Assembly (NCBI GenBank): GCA_019750135.1
Contig: JAIEOV010000055.1
Span: forward strand, 1 to 64,000
Direction of reading: 5' to 3'
Length of the DNA stretch: 64,000 nucleotides
Origin: Reyranella sp.
GTDB taxonomy: Bacteria; Pseudomonadota; Alphaproteobacteria; Reyranellales; Reyranellaceae
Part shown: one piece after another, positions 17,391 through 38,306 of the stretch
Numbering within the stretch: the stretch's first letter is position 1
Layout: every line of letters starts with the position of its first letter
Notes under the pieces: generated by a model
The model's input: the letters and a program-made list of their open reading frames with translations, nothing else
Databases searched by the model: none
Told to the model about the DNA's origin: nothing
Made by a program: the position numbers and the translations under genes

Positions 17391-17547
17391 TGCTGGGAGC
17401 GCGCCACTCCAGTGGCGCTCATGGTCCTGCCGGAGCGCGGACCTCCAGGTCCGCTCATGACTCATGATGCGGACCTGGAGGTCCGCGCTCCGAAGACGCG
17501 CCACTGGAGTGGCGCGCTCCCAGCAATGAGCGGACCTGGAGGTCCGC
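17391..17547. repeat. Nested palindrome island between yejA and yejB
   Basis: Five 18-bp palindromes are packed here: GCGCCACTCCAGTGGCGC at 17401 (type B), GCGGACCTCCAGGTCCGC at 17437 (type A), then both in the opposite orientation at 17469 (A), 17498 (B) and 17530 (A). Segments 17391-17418 and 17498-17525 form a perfect 28-bp inverted repeat. Nested inside, the A pair forms a perfect 22-bp inverted repeat. Each palindrome has an 8-bp stem and a two-base loop. The island could fold into a large hairpin in the yejA-yejB transcript and stabilise the yejA end, as REP elements do in malE-malF; that role is inference. Confidence 0.9.
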
Positions 17548-19490: not shown

Positions 19491-20474
19491 TCAGGTTTCG
19501 CCCTTGATCCCCGCTTCTTTCACGAGCTTGCCGTAGCGCTCGAAATCGGCCTTCCACATCGCCATCACCTCGGCCGGCGACCGGGGTGCCGGCACCTCGC
19601 ATCCTGCCTTGGTCAATCGGTCGCGGGTCTCCGGCTCCTGCAGCGCCTTCATGGCCGACGCATGAATGCGTTGGACGATCGGCGGCGGTGTGCCGGCCCG
19701 CACGGCGATCACGTACCAGCTCACCACGTTGGCGTCGGCGAATCCCGCCTCGGCGAACGTCGGCACGTCGGGCAGGGTTGCCAGTCGCTTGTCGGCCAGC
19801 ACGGCCAGCGCGCGCAGTTTGCCGCTCTGGACGTGTTGAATGCTGAGCGGTCCGGGCAGGAAGCCGACCTGCAGTCGGCCCTCCAGCAGATCGGGGATGC
19901 CCGGCGGTACGCCGCGATAGGGGACGCCGGTCATGTCGATCTTGTACTGGTTCTTGAGCAGCTCGGTCGCGAGATGGAGCGACGTGCCGTTGCCCGGGTT
20001 CAGGTAGTTGAGCTTGCCGGGATTGGCCCGCGCATAGTCGATCAGCTCCTTCAGCGTCTTCACCGGCAAGGCGGGGTTGACCGTTGCCACCGAGGTCGCC
20101 ACCGCCACCAGGGCGACGGGCTGGAAGTCGGCCAGCGCATCGTACGAGACGGGCTGCAGATGCGGCACCACGACGTGGCTGATCGTGGCCATCACCCAGT
20201 TGTATCCGTCGGCCGGCGCCTGCGGGATCATCGCCGTCGCAAGCGTGCCGTTGGCGCCGGGCTTGGGCTCGACCACCACCGGCTGGCCGAGGTCGGCCTG
20301 CATGGGTTCGACCACCGCCCGGGTCACGATGTCGACGATGCCGCCCACCGGGAAGGGCACCAGGATGCGCATCGGCTTGCCGGGAAAGGCCTGCGCCTGC
20401 GCGCCCGACGCCGCCAGCCACGCGGCGGTGCTGCCGATCGCGCCGATGGCGCTTCGGCGGGTGATGTCGTTCAT
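19491..20474 (-). CDS. Bug/TctC family tripartite tricarboxylate transporter receptor
   Basis: 327 residues from ATG 20474, which has a GGAGG site with a short A-rich spacer; the frame to 20501 adds only a glycine-rich leader. A Tat-like signal (I-T-R-R-S-A-I-G) ends at about A-Q-A. Mature landmarks are I-L-V-P-F-P-V-G-G, K-P-G-A-N-G-T and V-P-Y-R-G-V-P-P-G, the ligand-contact loops of the Bug fold. These periplasmic receptors bind carboxylates or small organics. No TctA/TctB permease is nearby, so it is one of three orphan receptors in the window. It is divergent from the selenoprotein gene. Confidence 0.92.
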   Translation of the reverse strand: MNDITRRSAIGAIGSTAAWLAASGAQAQAFPGKPMRILVPFPVGGIVDIVTRAVVEPMQADLGQPVVVEPKPGANGTLATAMIPQAPADGYNWVMATISHVVVPHLQPVSYDALADFQPVALVAVATSVATVNPALPVKTLKELIDYARANPGKLNYLNPGNGTSLHLATELLKNQYKIDMTGVPYRGVPPGIPDLLEGRLQVGFLPGPLSIQHVQSGKLRALAVLADKRLATLPDVPTFAEAGFADANVVSWYVIAVRAGTPPPIVQRIHASAMKALQEPETRDRLTKAGCEVPAPRSPAEVMAMWKADFERYGKLVKEAGIKGET

Positions 20475-20576
20475 TTTTCCTCCGCCCCCTGTCTTTGCCA
20501 AAAGCTAAGGGGTACCTGCGAAATTGTCATCCTGGGCAAAATTGACATCGCGGCAGGGCAGTCGCAGTTTGGCGCC

Positions 20577-21503
20577 ATGGCCGATACCGCTCAATTCGCG
20601 CCGGATTTCGACGCTCCGATCGAATACATGCGCCGCACCCGCGAGTACTACCTCGCGCTGGGTTACGACAATCCCTATCGCTGGGCGCACTATGTCGATG
20701 CGCCCTTCCAGCCGCTGAAGAAGCCGCTCAAGGACTCGACGCTGGCGCTGATCTCGACGGCCGCGCCCTACCAGCCCGACAAGGGCGACCAGGGGCCGGG
20801 GGCGGCCTACAACGCCGGCGCCAAGTTCTACACCGTCTATTCCGGCGACACCGCGGTCGACCACGACACGCGCATCAGCCACATCGGCTACGATCGCAAG
20901 CACACCACGGCCAAGGATTCCAATACCTGGTTCCCCTTGCCGCTGATGCGCGAGTTCGCCAGCCAGGGCCGTTTCAAGCTCGCCAGGCGTTTCCATGGCG
21001 CGCCGACCAACCGCAGCCAGCGGGTGACGCTCGAGACCGACGCGCCGGAGATCCTGGCGCGTTGCCGGCAGGACCAGGTCGATGCCGCGCTCCTGGTGCC
21101 GACTTGACCCGTCTGCCACCAGACCGTGGGTCTGGTCGCCCGATATCTGGAGAGGAACGGCATCCCCACGGTGATCATGGGGGCCGCCAAGGACATCGTC
21201 GAACATGTCGGCGTGCCGCGCTTTCTGTTCAGCGACTTCCCGCTGGGCAATTCCTGCGGCAAGCCGCACGAACCCAACACGCAGCGCTTCACGCTCGACC
21301 TCGCGCTGAAGGTGCTGGAGAGCGCGGTGGGCCCGCGCACCACGGTGCAGTCGCCGTTGCGCTGGACCGAGGATGGCGACTGGAAGAACGACTACAACAA
21401 CCTCGAGCGCATGCCGCCCGAGGAAGTCGCCAAGCGCCGCGCCGAGTTCGACAAGGTGAAGCAGGTCGCGTTGCAGCAGCGACAGAAGTCGGGCGTCGCC
21501 TGA
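20577..21503 (+). CDS. Predicted selenoprotein, GrdB-like (glycine/sarcosine/betaine reductase B family)
   Basis: One frame runs from ATG 20577 to TGA 21501-21503 and is broken only by TGA 21105-21107 (residue 177). If this codon is read as selenocysteine, the protein has 308 residues with a V-P-T-U-P-V-C-H-Q-T motif (U177, C180). Family members carry Sec or Cys at that spot. Sequence on both sides is clearly one domain: the second half has N-G-I-P-T-V, then D-I-V-E-H-V-G-V-P-R and F-P-L-G-N-S-C-G-K-P-H. The GrdB family forms a selenol redox centre in reductive cleavage of amines in Clostridia; aerobic homologues are unassigned. A hairpin fitting a bacterial SECIS begins 11 nt after the TGA. 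No grdA, grdC or sel gene is in the window. A simple Cys-to-stop mutation is the alternative. Confidence 0.85.
21105..21107 (+). other. Predicted selenocysteine (TGA) codon
   Basis: In-frame TGA at codon 177 of the GrdB-like gene. It stands three residues before a Cys (UxxC), the redox-motif position in this family. The reading frame continues without another stop for 131 codons afterwards. Confidence 0.82.
21118..21136 (+). promoter_or_regulatory. Candidate bacterial SECIS hairpin
   Basis: ACCAGACC (21118-21125) pairs perfectly with GGTCTGGT (21129-21136) across a GTG loop (21126-21128). The loop begins 18 nt after the TGA and its first base is G. The published rule for bacterial SECIS elements asks for about 16-37 nt from UGA to the apical loop and a G among the first two loop bases, and both hold. 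The hairpin lies inside the coding sequence, as bacterial elements must. Confidence 0.78.
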
Positions 21504-21510
21504 TGTCTTT

Positions 21511-21590
21511 GCTGGGGGCGCGCCACTCCAGTGGTGCGATCTTCTCCTTCAACAACAAAGAACGCGCCACTGGAGTGGCGCGCCCCCAGC
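21511..21590. repeat. Type B palindrome pair abutting a start codon
   Basis: Two type B palindromes (21520-21537, with one stem change, and 21564-21581) form a perfect 24-bp inverted repeat at their outer arms (21511-21534 and 21567-21590). The second arm ends one base before the CoA-transferase ATG at 21592. The loop between them (21538-21563) is A/C-rich. It occupies the whole space between the selenoprotein gene and the next gene and could act as a terminator or as the 5' leader of the next gene. Confidence 0.9.
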
Positions 21591-21591
21591 C

Positions 21592-22785
21592 ATGAGCAAA
21601 CCATTTACAGGCGTTAAGGTTCTCGACTTCACGCGCGTCCTCGCCGGGCCCTACGGCTCCTATCAGTTGGCGCTGCTCGGCGCCGACGTCATCAAGGTCG
21701 AAAGCCGCGAAGGCGACGACATGCGCTTCGGCAGCCGCGCCAACGACTGGGAGAAGCGCGGGCTTGCCGCTCCCTGGGTCGCGGTCAACTCGAACAAGCG
21801 CTCGATCACCCTCGACCTCAAGAAGCCCAAGGCGATCGAGGTCGTGAAGAAGCTCGCCGCCCAGGCCGACGTGGTGATGGAGAACTTCCGTCCCGGCGTC
21901 ATGGACAAGCTCGGCATCGGCTACGACGTGCTGAAGCAGATCAATCCGCGCCTGATCTACTGCGCTGTCTCGGGCTTCGGCCAGGTCGGCCCCGACCGCG
22001 AGACCGCCGCGTTCGACGGCATGATCCAGGCGATGTCCGGCCTGATGTCGATCACCGGCTTCCCGACGAATGGCCCGACACGCGTGGGCTTCGCCGGCGC
22101 CGACGTCATGTCGGGCGCCACGGCGGCGCTGGGCGTCGCCTCGGCGCTGTTCCAGCGCACCCATACCGGCAAGGGCCAGCTGGTCGATGTCGCCATGATC
22201 GACGCGGTGATGGGCTATCTCGCCCAGCAGTTCACCGAGCACCTGATGACCGGCCGCGTGCACGAGCAGGCGGCCAACCGCTCGGTGACGCGCAAGCCCA
22301 CCGGCGATCTCTACAAGACCAAGGACGGCTGGATGGTGCTGGCGGTCATGACCGAGCCGCAGTTCCAGCGCCTGATGAAGGATATCGGCCGCGCCGACGC
22401 GGCTGCCGATCCGCGCTTCGTCGACTGGCCGACGCGCATCGCCAACGACAAGGCATTGCACGAGATCATCGAGGCCGAGCTGGTGAAGGAGACGTCGGCC
22501 GCCTGGGCCGAGCGTTTCGCCAAGGCCGACGTGCCGGCCGGCCGCGTGCTCTCGATCCCCGAGACCGTGCAGCTCGACCACTTCGACCGTCGCCAGATCC
22601 TGCAGACCGTCGACACGCCGCACGGCCCGATCAAGGTCGTGGGCTCGGGCTTCCGCCTGGAGCATGGCGGCGGCTCGGTCGACCGCCCGCCGGCAACGCT
22701 CGGCCAGCACACCGACGAGATCCTGCGCGAGGCGGGCTACTCGGACGCCGACATCGCCAGCATGCGCGCCGACAAGGTCGCGTGA
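21592..22785 (+). CDS. CaiB/BaiF family (class III) CoA-transferase
   Basis: 397 residues with the family opening (F-T-G-V-K-V-L-D-F-T-R-V-L-A-G-P-Y-G), then L-G-A-D-V-I-K-V-E, N-S-N-K-R-S-I-T-L-D-L-K and R-P-G-V-M. The likely catalytic Asp is residue 171 in G-A-D-V-M-S-G. It transfers CoA between carboxylic acids in the cytoplasm; the acid is unknown. No Shine-Dalgarno sequence precedes the ATG: the bases before it are the end of a palindromic repeat, so initiation may be leaderless or coupled. Its stop overlaps the transglutaminase gene (GTGA at 22782-22785). Confidence 0.92.
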   Translation: MSKPFTGVKVLDFTRVLAGPYGSYQLALLGADVIKVESREGDDMRFGSRANDWEKRGLAAPWVAVNSNKRSITLDLKKPKAIEVVKKLAAQADVVMENFRPGVMDKLGIGYDVLKQINPRLIYCAVSGFGQVGPDRETAAFDGMIQAMSGLMSITGFPTNGPTRVGFAGADVMSGATAALGVASALFQRTHTGKGQLVDVAMIDAVMGYLAQQFTEHLMTGRVHEQAANRSVTRKPTGDLYKTKDGWMVLAVMTEPQFQRLMKDIGRADAAADPRFVDWPTRIANDKALHEIIEAELVKETSAAWAERFAKADVPAGRVLSIPETVQLDHFDRRQILQTVDTPHGPIKVVGSGFRLEHGGGSVDRPPATLGQHTDEILREAGYSDADIASMRADKVA

Positions 22786-26513: not shown

Positions 26514-29500
26514 TCACCAGCTGAGCCGCAGGCCGACATTCAGCGCGTGGTTGTCGGTGCCCGAGCCGATGTCGCCGTCGTAGCGGAAGTAGATCTGCGT
26601 CCCGGCAGCGACGGCGGTGGCGGCCTGGAAGCCGATCGCCGCCGCGTCGCGCTGTGGTGTCGCGCCGTAGACCGTGAAGGCGTTGGCCGGCGCGCCGGCG
26701 AAGGCCGCCGTGATCGGCCGGCCGGTATAGGCATACTCATGCAGCCAGCCCAGCCGCAGGGCCATGTCCAGGGTGCGCGTGTCGCCCAGTCCGATGGCGC
26801 CGTTAAGCTGTGCCCCCAGGGTCGAGCGCACCGAGTTGGTCGTCTGCTGCTGCACGTTGAGGCTCAGGCTGTCGGCGCCCCACTCGTTGAACGCCGACTG
26901 GTTCACGCTCATCACCTGCAGGCGCGCGAACGGCGTGATGCTCGCCGCCGCCGGGGCATAGACCGGCACCTGGTAGCCGATCTCGGCCTGGCCGAGGAAC
27001 TGATTGGCGCCTGTCGAGCCGTTGGCGGTGCGCGGCTGCAGGCCAGGGATCGAGATCTGCCGCTGCAGCTGGTTGTTGGAGTAGGCGTAGCCCGCCAGCA
27101 GGTCGGCATAGAAGCCTGACTGGGTGAAGCTCGCGTATGCGGCGACGCTCACGGCATTGGTCCAGCCCTTGCCTTGGAAGGTGTCGGCCCACTGCGTGCC
27201 GCTGGTGTAGCCGGCGCCGATGCCCAAGAGCAGGCTTGGCAGCACGCGATAGTCGATGCCGGCGGCCGCGCCGCCCATGTTGTAGGTGAAGGTGTTCGAG
27301 TTGCCGTCACCCTGCACCGAGCCGAAGCCGCCGAGCGCACTGCCCCACACGCTGAACGGACTCGCCGCATCGCAGGCCTCGACCTCGCAGGCCTGGGCCA
27401 ACGCCTGGCGTTGGCCGCTGCCGGCTACGCCACGCGCGATCGCCATCTGCTGACCGAGCGCATTCATGAACAGCGTGTTCGACGCGAGGTTCGCCGTGCC
27501 GAAGTCGGCATAGGGCTGCCCGCTGATCTGGTTCAGCGTGTACGGACCCTGCTGAGTGTTGAGGCCAGCCAAGGCGCCGATCACGGTCGCGAAGTCGCCG
27601 GTCGCGCTGGCGTAAGACTGGTCGAGCGCACCGCCGACCGCACGCTGGTTCACCGTGTTGCCGCCAAAGCCCGAGAACGCCGCGCCCTGCAGGGCGAGCG
27701 TCAGGAACACGTTGTTGGCGTTGTAGCTGAGGCTCGGCGTCAGGAAGGCGAAGTTGCTCGTGACACCGGCGTAGACGCCGCTGACGCCGCCGACGGCGTT
27801 GAGGATCGTGTAGGTCGTGCTGGCGCCGTAGTTGCCCGGTGCGGCCAGCACCTGGACGCTGGCGCCGTTGATGGTGGCGGTGCCGGCGACGTTGACGCGA
27901 TCGTTCTGCCCCTGGGCATTGACCTCGACCTGGTAGGTGCCGCCGTTGTGCACCAGGTTGCCGTTCACCGTCATGGTGCCGATCGAGTTGCCCGGCGCCA
28001 GGATGCCGCCGTTGATGATGAGCGTGCCGATGTTGCCGGTGCCGCCCAGGGTACCGCCGTTGCTGAGCGAGACCGGGCTCGCCAAGGTACCGTTCACCAC
28101 CAGCGTGCTGCCATTGACCGTAGTGGCGCCGGTGTAGGTGTTGGTCCCGGTGAAGGTGACCGTGCCGCCGCCCTGGATGCCGACGCCGCCAGTGCCGGAC
28201 ATGCTGCCGGCGTAGGTCCCGTTGGTCGACTGGACGAACGACACCGTGCCGGTGTTGATCAGGATGTTGCCCTGCAGGCTCGACGTGCTGCCGACCAAGC
28301 TGCTGCCGCCGGTCACGGTGGTGCCGCCGGTGTAGCTGTTGGCGCCGCTCAAGGTGAACGTCCCGCCGCCGCCCAAGGTCAGCGCACCCGTGCCCGACAT
28401 GTTGCCGGCGTAGGTGCCGTTGCCCGCCTGGTTGAAGGTCACCGACGCGTTGTTGAGGATGTTGCCCTGCAGGCTCTGCGTTGTGCCGACGAGGCTGCCG
28501 CCCGTCACCGCCGTGCCGCCCGAGTAGCTGTTGTTGCCGGTCAGAAGCACGATGCCGGTGCCGCTCACCAGGAGGCCGCCCGTGCCCGACATGTTGCCGG
28601 CGTAGGTGCCGCCGAAAGCCTGGTTGAACGTCACCTGCGCGTTGTTGAGGATGTTGCCCTGCAGGCTGGTCGTCGTGCCCTGCAGGATGCCGCCCGACAC
28701 CGTCGTGCCGCCGGTGTAGGTGTTGGTGCCGGTGAGCGTGACTGTGCCGCCGCCCTGGATGGTGAGCCCGCCCGTGCCCGACATCGCGCCGGCGTAGATG
28801 CCGCTGCCGCTCTGGCCGAACACCACGGAGGCGTTGTTCAGGATGTTGCCCTGCAGGCTGGTCGTCGTGCCCTGGAGCACGCCGGCCGACACTGTCGTGC
28901 CGCCGGTGTAGCTGTTGGCACCGGTGAGCGTCACCGTGCCGGTGCCGCTCTTGGTGAAGCTGCCGGTGCCCGACATGACGCCGGCATAGGTCCCATTCGT
29001 CGCCTGGTCGAACGCCACCGACGCATTGTTGACGATGGCGCCCTGCAGGCTCGACGTCGTGCCCTGCAGGATGCCCCCCGACACCGTCGTGCCGCCCGTG
29101 TAGGTGTTGGCGCCGCTCAGGATCACCGTGCCGGTGCCGCTCTTGGTGAAGCTGCCGGTGCCCGACATGGCGCCGGCATAGGTGCCGTTCGTCGCCTGGT
29201 CGAACACCACCGACGCGTTGTTGACGATGGCCCCCTGCAGGCTCGCCGTCGTGCCCTGCAGCACGCCGCCCGACACTGTCGTGCCGCCGGTGTAACTGCT
29301 GGCGCCGCTCAGGATCAGCGTGCCGAGGCCGTCCTTGGTGAGCCCGCCGGCGCCGGAGAGATTGCCGGTGACCGTGAGCGTGTTGCCGGCCGTGTCGATC
29401 GTGCCGCCGCCGGTGATCAGGTTGACCGGCCGGTCGACCGAGAAGCTCGCCGTCGCCTGCAGGGTGCCGCCGGCAAAGGTCAGCGTCGCACCCGCCGCGC

Positions 29501-32500
29501 CCAGCGCCGCATCCGACCCGGCTTGCACGATGCCACCGGCCAGGACCGTGCCGCCGGTGTTGCTGATCGTTCCGGTCAGGGTCACCTTGCCCGGGCCCAT
29601 GTAGGCGATCGCGCCCGAGCCGTCGACGTTGCCGCCGAAGGTGATGTCGTCCGAGCGGTTGAAGGCGAGGATGCCGTTGTTCAGCACGTTGCCCGCGATC
29701 ATGCCGGTCGTGCCGCCATTGCCGAGTTGCAGCGTACCGGCCGCGATGGTGGTGAGGCCCGAGTAGCTGTTGTCGGCGGTGAAGATCAGCGTGCCGGCGC
29801 CGAGCTTGTCGAGCGCGCCGTTGCCCGAGATCGTGCCGCCGAAGGTGACATTGTCGGAGCGGTTGAAGGCGAGCGTACCGTTGTTCAGCACGTTGCCGGC
29901 GATCGAGCCGGTCGTGCCGCCGTTGCCGACCTGCAGGATGCCGCCGGAGATCGTCGTGCCGCCGGCGTAGCTGTTGGCGCCGGTCAGGGTCACGGTACCG
30001 GTGCCCGACTTGGTCAGGCTGCCGCTGCCCGACATCGCGCCGACATACGTGCCGTTGGTGTTCTGGTCGAAGGTGACGGCGGCGTTGTTGGCGATGTTGC
30101 CTTGCAGGCTCGAGGTCGTGCCCACCAGCCTGCCGTCGCTCACCGTCGTGCCGCCGCTGTAGCTGTTGGTGCCAGTGAGCGTCACGGTGCCGGTGCCGGA
30201 CTTGGTGAAGCTGCCGTTGCCCGACATGTTGCCGGCGTAGGTGCCGTTGGTGTTCTGGTCGAAGGACACAGCCGCGTTGTTGACGATGTTGCCTTGCAGG
30301 CTCGAGGTCGTTCCCACCAGCGTGCCGCCCGACACCGTCGTGCCGCCGCTGTAGCTGTTGGTTCCGGTCATCGTCACTGTGCCGGTGCCCGACTTGGTCA
30401 GGCTGCCGCTGCCCGACATGGTGCCGGCATAGGTGCCATTGGTGCTCTGGTCGAAGGAGACAGCGGCGTTGTTGACGATGGTGCCCTGCAGGCTGGTCGT
30501 CGTGCCGGCTAGCGTGCCGTCCGACACTATCGTGCCGCCCGTGTAGGTGTTGACGCCGGTGAGCGTGACCGTACCAGTGCCCGACTTCGTCAGGCTGCCG
30601 CCGCCGGACATCACGCCGGCATAGGTGCCGTTGGTGCTCTGGACGAAGATCACGGCGGCGTTGTTGACGATGGCGCCTTGCAGGCTCGTGGTCGTGCCGG
30701 CCAGCGTGCCGGCCGACACGGTCGTGCCGCCGCTGTAGGTGTTGGCGCCGGTGAGCGTGACGGTGCCGGTGCCCGACTTGGTCAGGCTGCCGCTGCCCGA
30801 CATGGTGCCGGCATAGGTGCCGTTGGTGCTCTGGTCGAAGGTGACGTTGGCGTTGTTGACGATGTTGCCCTGCAGGCTCGTGGTCGTGCCGGCCAGCGTG
30901 CCGCCCGACACCGTCGTGCCGCCCGTGTAGGTGTTGGCGCCAGTGAGCGTCACCGTGCCGGTGCCCGACTTGGTCAGGCTGCCGCTGCCCGACATTGCGC
31001 CGGTGTAGGTGCCGTTGCTGCTCTGGTCGAAGGTGACGGCGGCGTTGTTGACGATGGCGCCCTGCAGGCTCGACGTCGTGCCCACCAGCGCGCCGCCCGA
31101 CACTGTCGTGCCGCCCGTGTAGCTGTTGGCGCCAGTGAGCGTCACCGTGCCGGTGCCCGACTTGGTCAGGCTGCCGTTGCCCGACATGTTGCCGGTGTAG
31201 GACCCGTTGGTGCTCTGGTCGAAGGTGACGGCGGCGTTGTTGACGATGGCGCCCTGCAGGCTGGTCGTCGTACCGACCAGCGTGCCGCCCGACACCGTCG
31301 TGCCGCCGCTGTAGCTGTTGCTGCCAGTCAGCGTAACGACGCCGGTACCCGACTTGGTCAGGCTGCCGCTGCCCGACATGTTGCCGGCATAGGTGCCGTT
31401 GGTGTTCTGGTCGAAGGTGACGTTGGCGTCGTTGACGATGTTGCCCTGCAGGCTGCCGGTCGTGCCCTGCAGGACGCCGCCGGTCAGCGTCGTGCCGCCG
31501 GTGTAGCTGTTGGTGCCCGAGAGGATCAGCGTGCCCGGACCGACCTTCGTCAGGCTGCCGCTGCCCGACATGTCGCCGGCATAGGTGCCGCCGCCGGCGA
31601 ACATCACCGCCGCATTGTTGAGAATGTTGCCGCGCAGGCTGTCCGCCGTGCCCTCCAGCGTGCCGGCCGATACCGTCACGCCGCCGGTGTAGGTGTTGGT
31701 GCCGTTCAGCACCAGCGTACCGCTGCCGATCTTGGTGAAGGCGCCGCCCGACAGGGTGCCGCTCAGGGTGAGGATGTTCGCCTGGGTGTCGATCGTGCTG
31801 CTGGCCGCGAGCGTCACGTCATTGGCGATCGACAGACCAGGCGTGGCCGCCTGCAGCGTCGTGCCGTTGGCAAAGGTGAGCGCACCGGCGCCCAGGGCAG
31901 CGTTGTTGCGTACCGCCAAGGTGCCTTCGTTGAGCGCGGTGCCGCCCTGATAGGTGTTGTTGCCGCTCAGCGTCAACGTGCCGGTTCCGGTCTTGGCCAG
32001 CCCGCCGGTGCCTCCGAGGCCGCCGCTGAGCGTCAGCCCATTGGCCTGGGTGTCGACCGTGCTGGTGCCGTTCAGCGTCATGCTGTTGGCGACGTTGAGC
32101 CCGTTGGCGGCCGCCTGCAGCGTCGTGCCGGTCGCGAAGGTGAGCGAGCCGGTGCCCAACGCACTGTTGCTGCCAACGGCCAGCGTGCCGGCGTTGAGTG
32201 CCGTGCCGCCCTGGTAGGTGTTGGTGCCGGAGAGCGTCACCGTGCCGGAGCCCGACTTGGCGAGGCCGCCGGTGCCCCCGATGACGTTGCTCACGGTGAG
32301 CGAGCCGGTGCGATTGAACGCCAGCGTGCCGTTGTTGGTCACGCTGCCGCTGCCCAGCGTGCCGGTCGCGCCGCCGTCGCCGATCTGCAGGGTGCCGGCG
32401 CCGATGATGGTGGTGTCGCTGTAGGTGTTGGTGCCGGTGAGGATGGTGGTACCGCCGGCATTGACGACCGAGCCGCTGCCGCTGATCGCGCTAGCGACCG

Positions 32501-34970
32501 TGACCGTGTCGCTGCGGTTGAAGGTGAGCCGGTCGTTGTTGACGACGTTGCCGGTGCCGAGCGTGCCGCTCGTGCCGCCGTTGCCGACGATCAGGTTGCC
32601 GGCCGTGATGGTCGTAGTGCCGGTATAGGTGTTGTTGCCCCGCAGCGTGAACGACTGGGTACTGTCCAGGGTGAAGCTGCCGTTGCCGGTGATGACGGTG
32701 TCGGTGCCGGCGCCGGCCGAGACCGTTCCCGTGGTCAGGCTGCCGCCGCTTCCCAGGTTGATCGTGCCGCCGATACCGGAGAGCTCGGAGACCGTCTGGG
32801 TGTTGCCATTGAGGTCCAGGGTGCCGCCATTGACGGCAAGCGTGCCGGTCCCGATCGAGGAGCCGGCGCCGAGCCGCAGTGTGCCGGCGCTGACGAGGGT
32901 GCTGCCGGTCAGGGTGTTGGTGCCGGTAAGGGTCGTGGTGCCGCTGCCGATCTGCCGCACCTGGCCCGCGCCGGTGATCGCGTTGCCGACCGCCAGCGCG
33001 CCGGTGCTGTTGAACGACAGGATGGCGTTGTTGGTGACACCGCCGGCGCCATTGCCGAGTGTGCCGCCGGCGCCGAGCTCGAGCATGCCGGCGCTGATGG
33101 TGGTGGCGCCGCTGTAGGTGTTGGCGCCGGTGAGCGCCAGGGTGCCCGTGCCGATCTTGGTCAGCGAGCCGGTGCTGCCGATCACGCCGCTCATCGTCAG
33201 CGTGTTGGCCTGGGTGTCGACCGTGCCCGGTCCCGCCAGCGTCACGGCATTGGCGACATTCAGGTTATTGGCGGCGGCCTGCAGCGTGCCGCCGTTCAGC
33301 GTGACGGTCCCGGTGCCCAGGCTGTCGTTGGCCGAGATGGCGATCGTGCCCGCGGTCGCCGAGACCGCGCCGCTGAAGTTGGCGTTGCTGCCGTTCAGGG
33401 CGAGGGTGCCGGCCCCGCTCTTGGAAAGCCCGCCGGTGCCGGCCACGGCGTTGTTGCCGGCCAGCGTCTGCGTGCCGCTGGCGATGTTCATGGCGGTCGT
33501 GCCGGTGCCGTGCAGGTACATCACCGTGCCCTGCGCCTGGCCCGCCGTCGCGCCGCCGGTGCCGCCGGTCGTGCCGCCGGTCACGCCGTAGGTGCCGGCA
33601 AGGTTGCCGCCATTGATGGTCAGGCTGCCGCCGTCGCGCACGAAGAAGGCGCCGCCCAGCGCCGCGCCGCCGCCGCCATCGGCATCGGTGCCGGTGCCGC
33701 CCTGGCCTCCGAGACCTCCGCTGGGCGCATTCGACCCGGCGCCCCCGCCCCCGCCGCCGCCGAAGCCGCCGGCACCTCCACTTACGCCGCTGTTAACGCG
33801 AGTTCCGCCGCCGCCGCCGCCGAAGCCGCCGGCGCCCCCGGGAGCGGACAAGCTGTTGCCGGAGCCCCCACCACCGCCGAAATCTCCGCCGGCGCCGCCG
33901 GAAGTCGTTTTCCCGCCACCGCCGCCGCCGCCGACACCACCCGCACCGCCGGCCGACGCGACGACTCCCTGACTGCTGCCGCCGCCGCCGCCGCCGGAAA
34001 ACTGGCCGCTGCCACCGCCCCCTGCGCCGTTGAAGCCGCTGCCGCCGCCGCCGCCGCCCACGCCCGCCGCGGCGGTGCCGCCCGACCCGTCATTGCCGCC
34101 GGTGCCTCCCTGGGCACCACCGCCTGCGCCGCCAGTCGCGCCGGTGCCATTGCCGCCGTTTGCGCCGAGTGCGGCACCGCCGCCGCCGCCACCGCCTGCG
34201 GCTGCACCAACGACCAGGGCCCCGTCCCCGCCGTTGCCCTGCTGGCCACCGCCTCCACCGCCAGCACCATTATTGAGGACATTAGAGTTTCCACCGGCAC
34301 CGAATTCGCCGCCGCCGCCGCCGCCGCCGCCGGAGGTGGTGCTACCGCCGTTGCCTTGATAGCCGCCGCCGCCGCCGCCGGCTGTGGCGCCTGCACTGCC
34401 GCCATTGCCGCCGAGGCCGCCGCCGCCGCCGCCTCCCGTGCCGCCGAACCCGGCCTGGGCATTGCCGCCATTGCCGCCAGCACCGCCGGTTGCAGAGGCA
34501 TTGCCGACCGTAACGTTGGTCAGGGCCGCCGCCGCTCCCTGATTGACGAACACCGCGGCACCCGCACCCAACCCGCCGCCGCCGCCGCCGCCTTGAGCAG
34601 CGCTGGGAAGCCGGGCGCCGTTGCCGCCATCGCCGCCCTGGGCGACGGCGTTGTTGATGGTGAGGTTCGAGATCGACACGGTTCCGGCCTGCACGAAGAA
34701 GGCGCGGCCCGCGTTGTTGGCGTCGATGGTGTTGTTGTTGCCGGTGACGGTCACGCTGGCCGTGATCATCGGCAGCGACTGGGTCAACGTGATGTTGCCC
34801 GTGATGTTGATGGTGCTGTCGCCGCCGCTATTGGCCGCGAAGATCGCGTCGCGCAGCTGGGTTTCGGTGCTGACGTTGACGGCCCAGGCGGTCACCGGCG
34901 ACAGGCAGGTGCCGGCCAACAAAAAAGCGGCCAGCCGTCCCGGCTGCCGCGTCACGCTGATGAACGCCAT
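26514..34970 (-). CDS. Giant autotransporter adhesin with PATR repeats
   Basis: 2818 residues. A signal peptide ends near T-A-W-A. Residues 31-105 form a short beta-helix start (polymorphic outer-membrane type), followed by a Gly-rich segment of roughly 320 residues (about 107-430) with many G-G-G-G-G runs. From about 500 to 2400 come passenger-associated transport repeats (L-T-K-S-G-T-G-T-V-T-L-T-G), which build a long beta-helix. The C-terminal beta-barrel starts near residue 2545 with S-V-W-G-S-A-L-G-G-F and ends in L-R-L-S-W. It is a type V secreted surface fibre, probably for adhesion or biofilm. Two runs of repeats are spaced exactly 192 bp. It is transcribed away from the AraC-type regulator. 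Confidence 0.95.
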   Translation of the reverse strand: MAFISVTRQPGRLAAFLLAGTCLSPVTAWAVNVSTETQLRDAIFAANSGGDSTINITGNITLTQSLPMITASVTVTGNNNTIDANNAGRAFFVQAGTVSISNLTINNAVAQGGDGGNGARLPSAAQGGGGGGGLGAGAAVFVNQGAAAALTNVTVGNASATGGAGGNGGNAQAGFGGTGGGGGGGLGGNGGSAGATAGGGGGGYQGNGGSTTSGGGGGGGGEFGAGGNSNVLNNGAGGGGGGQQGNGGDGALVVGAAAGGGGGGGAALGANGGNGTGATGGAGGGAQGGTGGNDGSGGTAAAGVGGGGGGSGFNGAGGGGSGQFSGGGGGGSSQGVVASAGGAGGVGGGGGGGKTTSGGAGGDFGGGGGSGNSLSAPGGAGGFGGGGGGTRVNSGVSGGAGGFGGGGGGGAGSNAPSGGLGGQGGTGTDADGGGGAALGGAFFVRDGGSLTINGGNLAGTYGVTGGTTGGTGGATAGQAQGTVMYLHGTGTTAMNIASGTQTLAGNNAVAGTGGLSKSGAGTLALNGSNANFSGAVSATAGTIAISANDSLGTGTVTLNGGTLQAAANNLNVANAVTLAGPGTVDTQANTLTMSGVIGSTGSLTKIGTGTLALTGANTYSGATTISAGMLELGAGGTLGNGAGGVTNNAILSFNSTGALAVGNAITGAGQVRQIGSGTTTLTGTNTLTGSTLVSAGTLRLGAGSSIGTGTLAVNGGTLDLNGNTQTVSELSGIGGTINLGSGGSLTTGTVSAGAGTDTVITGNGSFTLDSTQSFTLRGNNTYTGTTTITAGNLIVGNGGTSGTLGTGNVVNNDRLTFNRSDTVTVASAISGSGSVVNAGGTTILTGTNTYSDTTIIGAGTLQIGDGGATGTLGSGSVTNNGTLAFNRTGSLTVSNVIGGTGGLAKSGSGTVTLSGTNTYQGGTALNAGTLAVGSNSALGTGSLTFATGTTLQAAANGLNVANSMTLNGTSTVDTQANGLTLSGGLGGTGGLAKTGTGTLTLSGNNTYQGGTALNEGTLAVRNNAALGAGALTFANGTTLQAATPGLSIANDVTLAASSTIDTQANILTLSGTLSGGAFTKIGSGTLVLNGTNTYTGGVTVSAGTLEGTADSLRGNILNNAAVMFAGGGTYAGDMSGSGSLTKVGPGTLILSGTNSYTGGTTLTGGVLQGTTGSLQGNIVNDANVTFDQNTNGTYAGNMSGSGSLTKSGTGVVTLTGSNSYSGGTTVSGGTLVGTTTSLQGAIVNNAAVTFDQSTNGSYTGNMSGNGSLTKSGTGTVTLTGANSYTGGTTVSGGALVGTTSSLQGAIVNNAAVTFDQSSNGTYTGAMSGSGSLTKSGTGTVTLTGANTYTGGTTVSGGTLAGTTTSLQGNIVNNANVTFDQSTNGTYAGTMSGSGSLTKSGTGTVTLTGANTYSGGTTVSAGTLAGTTTSLQGAIVNNAAVIFVQSTNGTYAGVMSGGGSLTKSGTGTVTLTGVNTYTGGTIVSDGTLAGTTTSLQGTIVNNAAVSFDQSTNGTYAGTMSGSGSLTKSGTGTVTMTGTNSYSGGTTVSGGTLVGTTSSLQGNIVNNAAVSFDQNTNGTYAGNMSGNGSFTKSGTGTVTLTGTNSYSGGTTVSDGRLVGTTSSLQGNIANNAAVTFDQNTNGTYVGAMSGSGSLTKSGTGTVTLTGANSYAGGTTISGGILQVGNGGTTGSIAGNVLNNGTLAFNRSDNVTFGGTISGNGALDKLGAGTLIFTADNSYSGLTTIAAGTLQLGNGGTTGMIAGNVLNNGILAFNRSDDITFGGNVDGSGAIAYMGPGKVTLTGTISNTGGTVLAGGIVQAGSDAALGAAGATLTFAGGTLQATASFSVDRPVNLITGGGTIDTAGNTLTVTGNLSGAGGLTKDGLGTLILSGASSYTGGTTVSGGVLQGTTASLQGAIVNNASVVFDQATNGTYAGAMSGTGSFTKSGTGTVILSGANTYTGGTTVSGGILQGTTSSLQGAIVNNASVAFDQATNGTYAGVMSGTGSFTKSGTGTVTLTGANSYTGGTTVSAGVLQGTTTSLQGNILNNASVVFGQSGSGIYAGAMSGTGGLTIQGGGTVTLTGTNTYTGGTTVSGGILQGTTTSLQGNILNNAQVTFNQAFGGTYAGNMSGTGGLLVSGTGIVLLTGNNSYSGGTAVTGGSLVGTTQSLQGNILNNASVTFNQAGNGTYAGNMSGTGALTLGGGGTFTLSGANSYTGGTTVTGGSSLVGSTSSLQGNILINTGTVSFVQSTNGTYAGSMSGTGGVGIQGGGTVTFTGTNTYTGATTVNGSTLVVNGTLASPVSLSNGGTLGGTGNIGTLIINGGILAPGNSIGTMTVNGNLVHNGGTYQVEVNAQGQNDRVNVAGTATINGASVQVLAAPGNYGASTTYTILNAVGGVSGVYAGVTSNFAFLTPSLSYNANNVFLTLALQGAAFSGFGGNTVNQRAVGGALDQSYASATGDFATVIGALAGLNTQQGPYTLNQISGQPYADFGTANLASNTLFMNALGQQMAIARGVAGSGQRQALAQACEVEACDAASPFSVWGSALGGFGSVQGDGNSNTFTYNMGGAAAGIDYRVLPSLLLGIGAGYTSGTQWADTFQGKGWTNAVSVAAYASFTQSGFYADLLAGYAYSNNQLQRQISIPGLQPRTANGSTGANQFLGQAEIGYQVPVYAPAAASITPFARLQVMSVNQSAFNEWGADSLSLNVQQQTTNSVRSTLGAQLNGAIGLGDTRTLDMALRLGWLHEYAYTGRPITAAFAGAPANAFTVYGATPQRDAAAIGFQAATAVAAGTQIYFRYDGDIGSGTDNHALNVGLRLSW
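28200..29300 (-). repeat. Autotransporter repeat block 2 (about six units)
   Basis: The same landmark (a Ser-Leu-Gln-Gly codon group, CCCTGCAGGCT on the plus strand) recurs at about 29230, 29038, 28846, 28654, 28462 and 28267. Spacings are 192 bp except the last, which is 195 bp because of one added serine codon. Confidence 0.9.
30000..31640 (-). repeat. Autotransporter repeat block 1 (about nine units)
   Basis: The landmark recurs at 31629, 31441, 31249, 31057, 30865, 30673, 30481, 30289 and 30097. All steps after the first are exactly 192 bp, so each unit is 64 codons. Units are close to identical in protein, differing mainly at a few variable positions. Such a block can expand or contract by recombination. 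Confidence 0.92.
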
Positions 34971-36271: not shown

Positions 36272-36324
36272 TCTGAAGCGCTTCATCGTTGCCTCGTGAG
36301 CCCGCAGGTATAAAGTCGCTTCCG

Positions 36325-38306
<1,982 letters not shown>

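Follow-up and report, generated by a model that had tools for sequence, protein, structure and literature searches.

A PrdB/GrdB-like gene of Reyranella with a probable in-frame selenocysteine codon and a conserved CoA-transferase neighbour

Results

Gene organization at the locus

The window analysed here is a 64,000-nucleotide stretch of a Reyranella sp. contig. The gene of interest (Table 1) opens with ATG and closes with a TGA stop at 21501-21503, and, as had been proposed from the sequence, it forms a single frame split only by one TGA, at codon 177. C180 is encoded by TGC (21114-21116), so that the motif would read U-P-V-C if codon 177 specifies selenocysteine (Sec); reading of the codons places the TGA at the first residue of a UxxC motif, as predicted. 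Both halves of the frame belong to one domain, because the match to the NCBIfam model TIGR04483 (PrdB) runs through the TGA, from residue 43 to residue 250. The gene lies between a divergent gene for a solute receptor and a CoA-transferase gene.

Table 1 Features of the selenoprotein locus (window coordinates)
Feature	Position	Strand	Basis
Predicted PrdB/GrdB-like selenoprotein gene, 308 residues, Sec at 177	20577..21503	+	Frame, profile matches, orthologues
In-frame TGA, proposed Sec codon (U177 of U-P-V-C)	21105..21107	+	TGA or Cys in 139/139 homologue rows
Apical stem-loop of proposed bacterial SECIS; six pairs, 21119-21124 with 21130-21135, loop 21125-21129	21119..21135	+	Covariation
125-residue ORF with GTG start inside the SECIS loop; separate protein in databases (relatives)	21126..21503	+	Tail search
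Class III CoA-transferase, conserved as a neighbour and proposed as functional partner	21592..22785	+	PF02515, 399.1 bits; synteny
TctC-type solute receptor, divergent neighbour, in some relatives only	19491..20501	-	PF03401, 215.5 bits

Family assignment

The protein barely passes the threshold of PF07355 (GRDB superfamily; 22.5 bits against a cut-off of 22), and the match reaches the last position of the profile at residue 176, immediately ahead of U177. TIGR04483 is the best NCBIfam model, with 81 bits, and its equivalog cut-off of 300 is far from reached. The GrdB-type models TIGR01917, TIGR01918, NF040794 and NF040795, which describe protein B of glycine, sarcosine and betaine reductases, score 39-43 bits, all below cut-off (39.3 against 602.2 for TIGR01917 and 41.5 against 65.45 for TIGR01918), and these profiles of 431-435 positions are matched from position 222 or later only. 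The label "GrdB-like" given in the original prediction holds for PF07355 only, PrdB being the better match. No solved relative was found by sequence up to E 10, and a fold search of the predicted model (pLDDT 78) against PDB and viral libraries gave no match at E ≤ 0.001.

The gene might encode a true subunit of D-proline or glycine reductase, with its partners encoded at other places in the genome. The rank of PrdB as best NCBIfam match speaks for this, but none of the NCBIfam models of characterised reductases reaches its cut-off with this protein. Moreover, PF04723 (GrdA) and PF09338 (a component B subunit, and a family that we take PrdA to match as well) were each found in 0/65 genus genomes, and PF09338 in 0/398 genomes of the phylum, although no control genome matched either profile and absence is not thereby established. 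We regard a true reductase subunit as improbable, and the family has probably been misnamed as D-proline or glycine reductase.

Alternation of TGA and cysteine at codon 177

Homologues were aligned and counted where at least 180 columns were aligned and codon 177 was covered. The 139 rows so obtained, which include some genomes twice, once from each of two collections, and closely related rows that do not count as independent, carry TGA in 108 cases, TGC or TGT (Cys) in 31 and nothing else, in agreement with the U or C expected at this position. Within the genus, orthologues with at least 82% identity and codon 177 covered occur in 60/65 genomes. Exactly one internal TGA is present in 54 of the 60, its place having been confirmed by direct reading for the fetched loci, and the six stop-free orthologues all have Cys at 177. 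The remaining five genomes hold a fragment only (one) or lack a close orthologue (four). The nearest named records belong to R. soli NBRC 108950 (95% identity), R. massiliensis 521 (91%) and R. aquatilis (91%). Substitutions 3' of the TGA are as protein-like as those 5' of it, because the share of third-position changes is 66.4% after the TGA and 68.3% before it (57 unique Sec orthologues).

Among database proteins, the best 120 of at least 8000 scored all have C at both 177 and 180. At residue 176, all of these best 120 Cys forms have Asn just ahead of the Cys, and Sec forms have Thr, Ser, Ala, Val, Leu, Met or Asn. Two individual assignments were rejected: a UAG-Sec form considered for two TAG-bearing loci (G145:C321 and G165:C22), where the codon is TGC in both, and the counting of G466 as a "one TGA" form, where the Sec position is actually Cys.

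A quick tree of 133 rows (90 Sec, 43 Cys), built with long-branch warnings, needs nine Sec/Cys changes, of which its starred branches force two, and it cannot separate gain of Sec from loss. A ten-row Cys set (support 96) falls inside the Sec rows of the genus, with the surrounding forks unsettled.

A covarying hairpin behind the TGA

The stem of the proposed SECIS starts 11 bases behind the TGA, and its five-base loop is closed by six pairs. In distance and shape the hairpin matches bacterial SECIS elements. Across 44 distinct Sec rows, which include paralogues at 29-49% identity, 99.6% of cells are paired, and two-sided changes occur in four of the six pairs. Cells changed on both sides number 18, against 2.3 in shuffles; the observed signal was reached by 0/500 shuffles for four measures and by 1/500 for a fifth, in a control that takes no account of kinship among rows. 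Pairing falls to 60% in Cys rows (n = 10). In the 57 unique Sec orthologues, synonymous divergence is lowest, among all 302 six-codon windows, at codons 182-187 (0.007, the mean being 0.28); four of these six codons vary in the six Cys orthologues. An Rfam search at the site returned no SECIS family, and folding of single sequences was weakly unusual (z of -1.19, -0.45, -1.90 and -2.05 in four windows).

Selenocysteine machinery

All of selA, selB, selC and selD were sought in the same genome (8.46 Mb) and found. A tRNA-Sec with anticodon TCA (72.4 bits) lies close to SelB (456 bits, cut-off 242) and SelA (564 bits, cut-off 268), and SelD (374 bits, cut-off 125) is encoded on the window's own contig (C135:77004-77948). 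The selABC contig also carries fdhA (formate dehydrogenase) with one TGA. Across the genus, tRNA-Sec scores at least 68 bits in 61/65 genomes, the four without a match being 60-89% complete; all six genomes with the Cys form have it as well. The nesting of tRNA-Sec in selB of Alphaproteobacteria is the subject of an earlier paper (PMC8124441), and a term search of its main text found no mention of Reyranella, GrdB or proline reductase.

Truncated entries in databases

Of the best 120 matches to the 125-residue tail, 93 are exactly 125 residues long and none contains P-V-C-H-Q, the residues encoded right after the Sec codon, in a search that took in proteins of about 69-219 residues, with full-length ones outside that range. 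Those that are named are mostly "hypothetical protein", with two labelled "D-proline reductase (dithiol) PrdB". For the tail, these entries bear out the expectation that automatic annotation would give two truncated genes, and since they begin behind the Sec codon, the Sec residue is invisible in databases.

Such calls fit a reading in which the TGA truly ends translation, or results from faulty sequencing, and the locus contains a pseudogene or two separate genes. Against it stand the one TGA of 54/60 genus orthologues, found in many assemblies and at the same codon wherever it was read, together with protein-like substitution after the TGA, covariation of the SECIS and the presence of the Sec machinery, and we consider it scarcely tenable. 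With Sec machinery, SECIS covariation, alternation of TGA and Cys and truncated database entries all in agreement, there is strong support for Sec at the redox position. On this comparative evidence, TGA 21105-21107 is very likely read as Sec, inserted at residue 177, and the gene product is almost certainly a selenoprotein of the PrdB/GrdB superfamily.

Paralogues

The genome contains two further paralogues, each with one TGA, which score 103 and 69.8 bits against TIGR04483 (cut-off 300). The second (P0123; C121; L086:7211-8080) has 289 residues with Sec at 163 and no PF07355 match; it adjoins Rid-family and formamidase-like genes, and a biuret-amidohydrolase-like gene lies upstream at a distance of some kilobases. 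The third (P0122; C137:21552-22715; L087:7553-8719) has 388 residues, Sec at 155, a longer C-terminus and a PF07355 score of 34.5 bits. One TGA is present in 43/43 of its genus rows (at least 54% identity, Sec codon spanned), and it stands at the Sec codon in 20/20 loci read directly. P0122 loci have a different, GC-rich stem, fully paired in the copy of the window genome. The best 120 of 1079 database matches to P0122 are without exception 227-233-residue fragments starting inside its hairpin, mostly unnamed or "hypothetical protein"; no full-length protein is among these 120, though such lengths were admitted. The near-identical hairpin found in distant paralogues suggests, without proof, that Sec is the older state.

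Conserved CoA-transferase neighbour

Conservation of gene order was counted at loci with more than 800 bases of room, many of them close kin, and a CoA-transferase was scored when next downstream on the same strand. This is the case in 56/58 loci at 80% identity or above, in 14/19 loci among L166-L185, where L178 lacks the room and is left out, and in 9/15 loci L191-L205 (missing in two, five and six, respectively). In the last two sets, mostly Cys forms, the transferase is 50-56% identical, and neither TctC nor SBP neighbours were found. The CoA-transferase is also missing at L061, L066, L072, L074-L076, L078, L079, L081, L082 and L084 (some of them the same genomes), lies on the opposite strand at L083 and is only 33% identical at L073 and L080. 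The neighbour is kept in both Sec and Cys lineages. It occurs in two Rhodospirillaceae bins (L170, L171) whose protein is 68% identical, with a TGA and the same hairpin; the title of one bin includes ERR599097, presumably an ocean sample.

Gene order points to a pathway shared by the selenoprotein and the CoA-transferase. Because an inverted repeat (21517-21534 / 21567-21584) sits between the two genes, a single transcript for both is unsure. The same repeat recurs at 17398-17415 / 17501-17518, with one mismatch in the second pair.

Discussion

Known and new

The original prediction had further suggested that a Sec form in an alphaproteobacterium-like genome would be a new context, which stands in part. 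Sec forms outside clostridia are not new, because the Sargasso Sea (2005; 42 sequences; PMC1088965) and GOS (2008; 235 sequences; PMC2398784) had already yielded UxxC "PrdB" selenoproteins, according to the accessible text of both papers. A 2006 study lists FdhA as the sole selenoprotein family of Alphaproteobacteria (PMC1794560). A 2026 review counts GrdB and PrdB among UxxC families (PMC13188914). The marine metagenomic proteins likewise have UxxC, PF07355 and both Sec and Cys forms; they were named proline reductase in papers whose accessible text mentions neither a host genus nor a partner gene or a set of paralogues, and were compared here by description. Among the papers listed by literature searches, mostly outside subscription journals, none deals with a selenoprotein of Reyranella or with its pairing with a CoA-transferase; the one that names Reyranella (PMC12740848) is, by its title, a fish-feeding study. 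Within the reach of these searches, three points are new: the Reyranella set, the association with a CoA-transferase and the switching between Sec and Cys.

Possible function

The closest known system by profile is D-proline reductase PrdB, from which this locus differs in its score and in having a CoA-transferase as neighbour. In clostridial PrdB and GrdB, the substrate is activated by a pyruvoyl subunit. We tentatively propose, by analogy with the superfamily and from gene order, that the Reyranella protein catalyses reductive cleavage of an alpha-substituted acyl group held as a CoA ester. SelB carrying Sec-tRNA-Sec very probably binds the hairpin 11 bases behind the UGA, and Sec is put in at residue 177 instead of a stop. 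The protein may then act together with the adjacent class III CoA-transferase, which would convert an acid to its CoA thioester. The U177 selenolate would attack the alpha carbon and expel the substituent, C180 would free the reduced acyl product by way of an Se-S bridge, and a cellular thiol system would reopen that bridge. CoA activation would take the part of the pyruvoyl subunit. Reyranella grows in air. A wider version, which we put forward as doubtful, is that these proteins form an orphan, oxygen-tolerant branch of the glycine/proline reductase selenoenzymes that relies on a class III CoA-transferase, and activation as a CoA thioester, in place of the pyruvoyl subunit; Sec would be the ancestral state, from which the many Cys relatives derive.

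FarB of Cloacibacillus is likewise a GrdB-like Sec protein, proposed, in the accessible text of its description, to defluorinate monofluoroacetate by attack on a carbon where a Schiff base cannot form (PMC10838667). It differs in its strictly anaerobic host and its GrdE-like partner subunit, and the likeness is one of description.

A different possibility is that Sec is inserted into an enzyme of general thiol-disulfide or peroxide reduction, one that does not reduce a CoA-activated substrate. UxxC occurs widely as a redox motif, thiol-based oxidoreductases are said to be the homologues of most predicted prokaryotic selenoproteins (PMC9312934, accessible text), and the paralogues have other neighbours. 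Against such a role stand the superfamily, which is one of substrate reductases, and the steady pairing with a single CoA-transferase family.

The selenoprotein is common to most of a genus with cultured strains, and its database tails start behind the Sec codon. The pairing with a CoA-transferase offers a first testable clue to a large family, of which at least 8000 relatives were scored. The genus has both Sec and Cys forms, with tRNA-Sec retained alongside the latter, and is well suited to asking why Sec is kept or lost.

Other features of the window

Elsewhere in the window, a gene on the minus strand (26514-34970) encodes a 2818-residue protein with 23 stretches of PATR (autotransporter passenger) repeats, and a TPP riboswitch (71.3 bits) lies at 36319-36438 on the plus strand.
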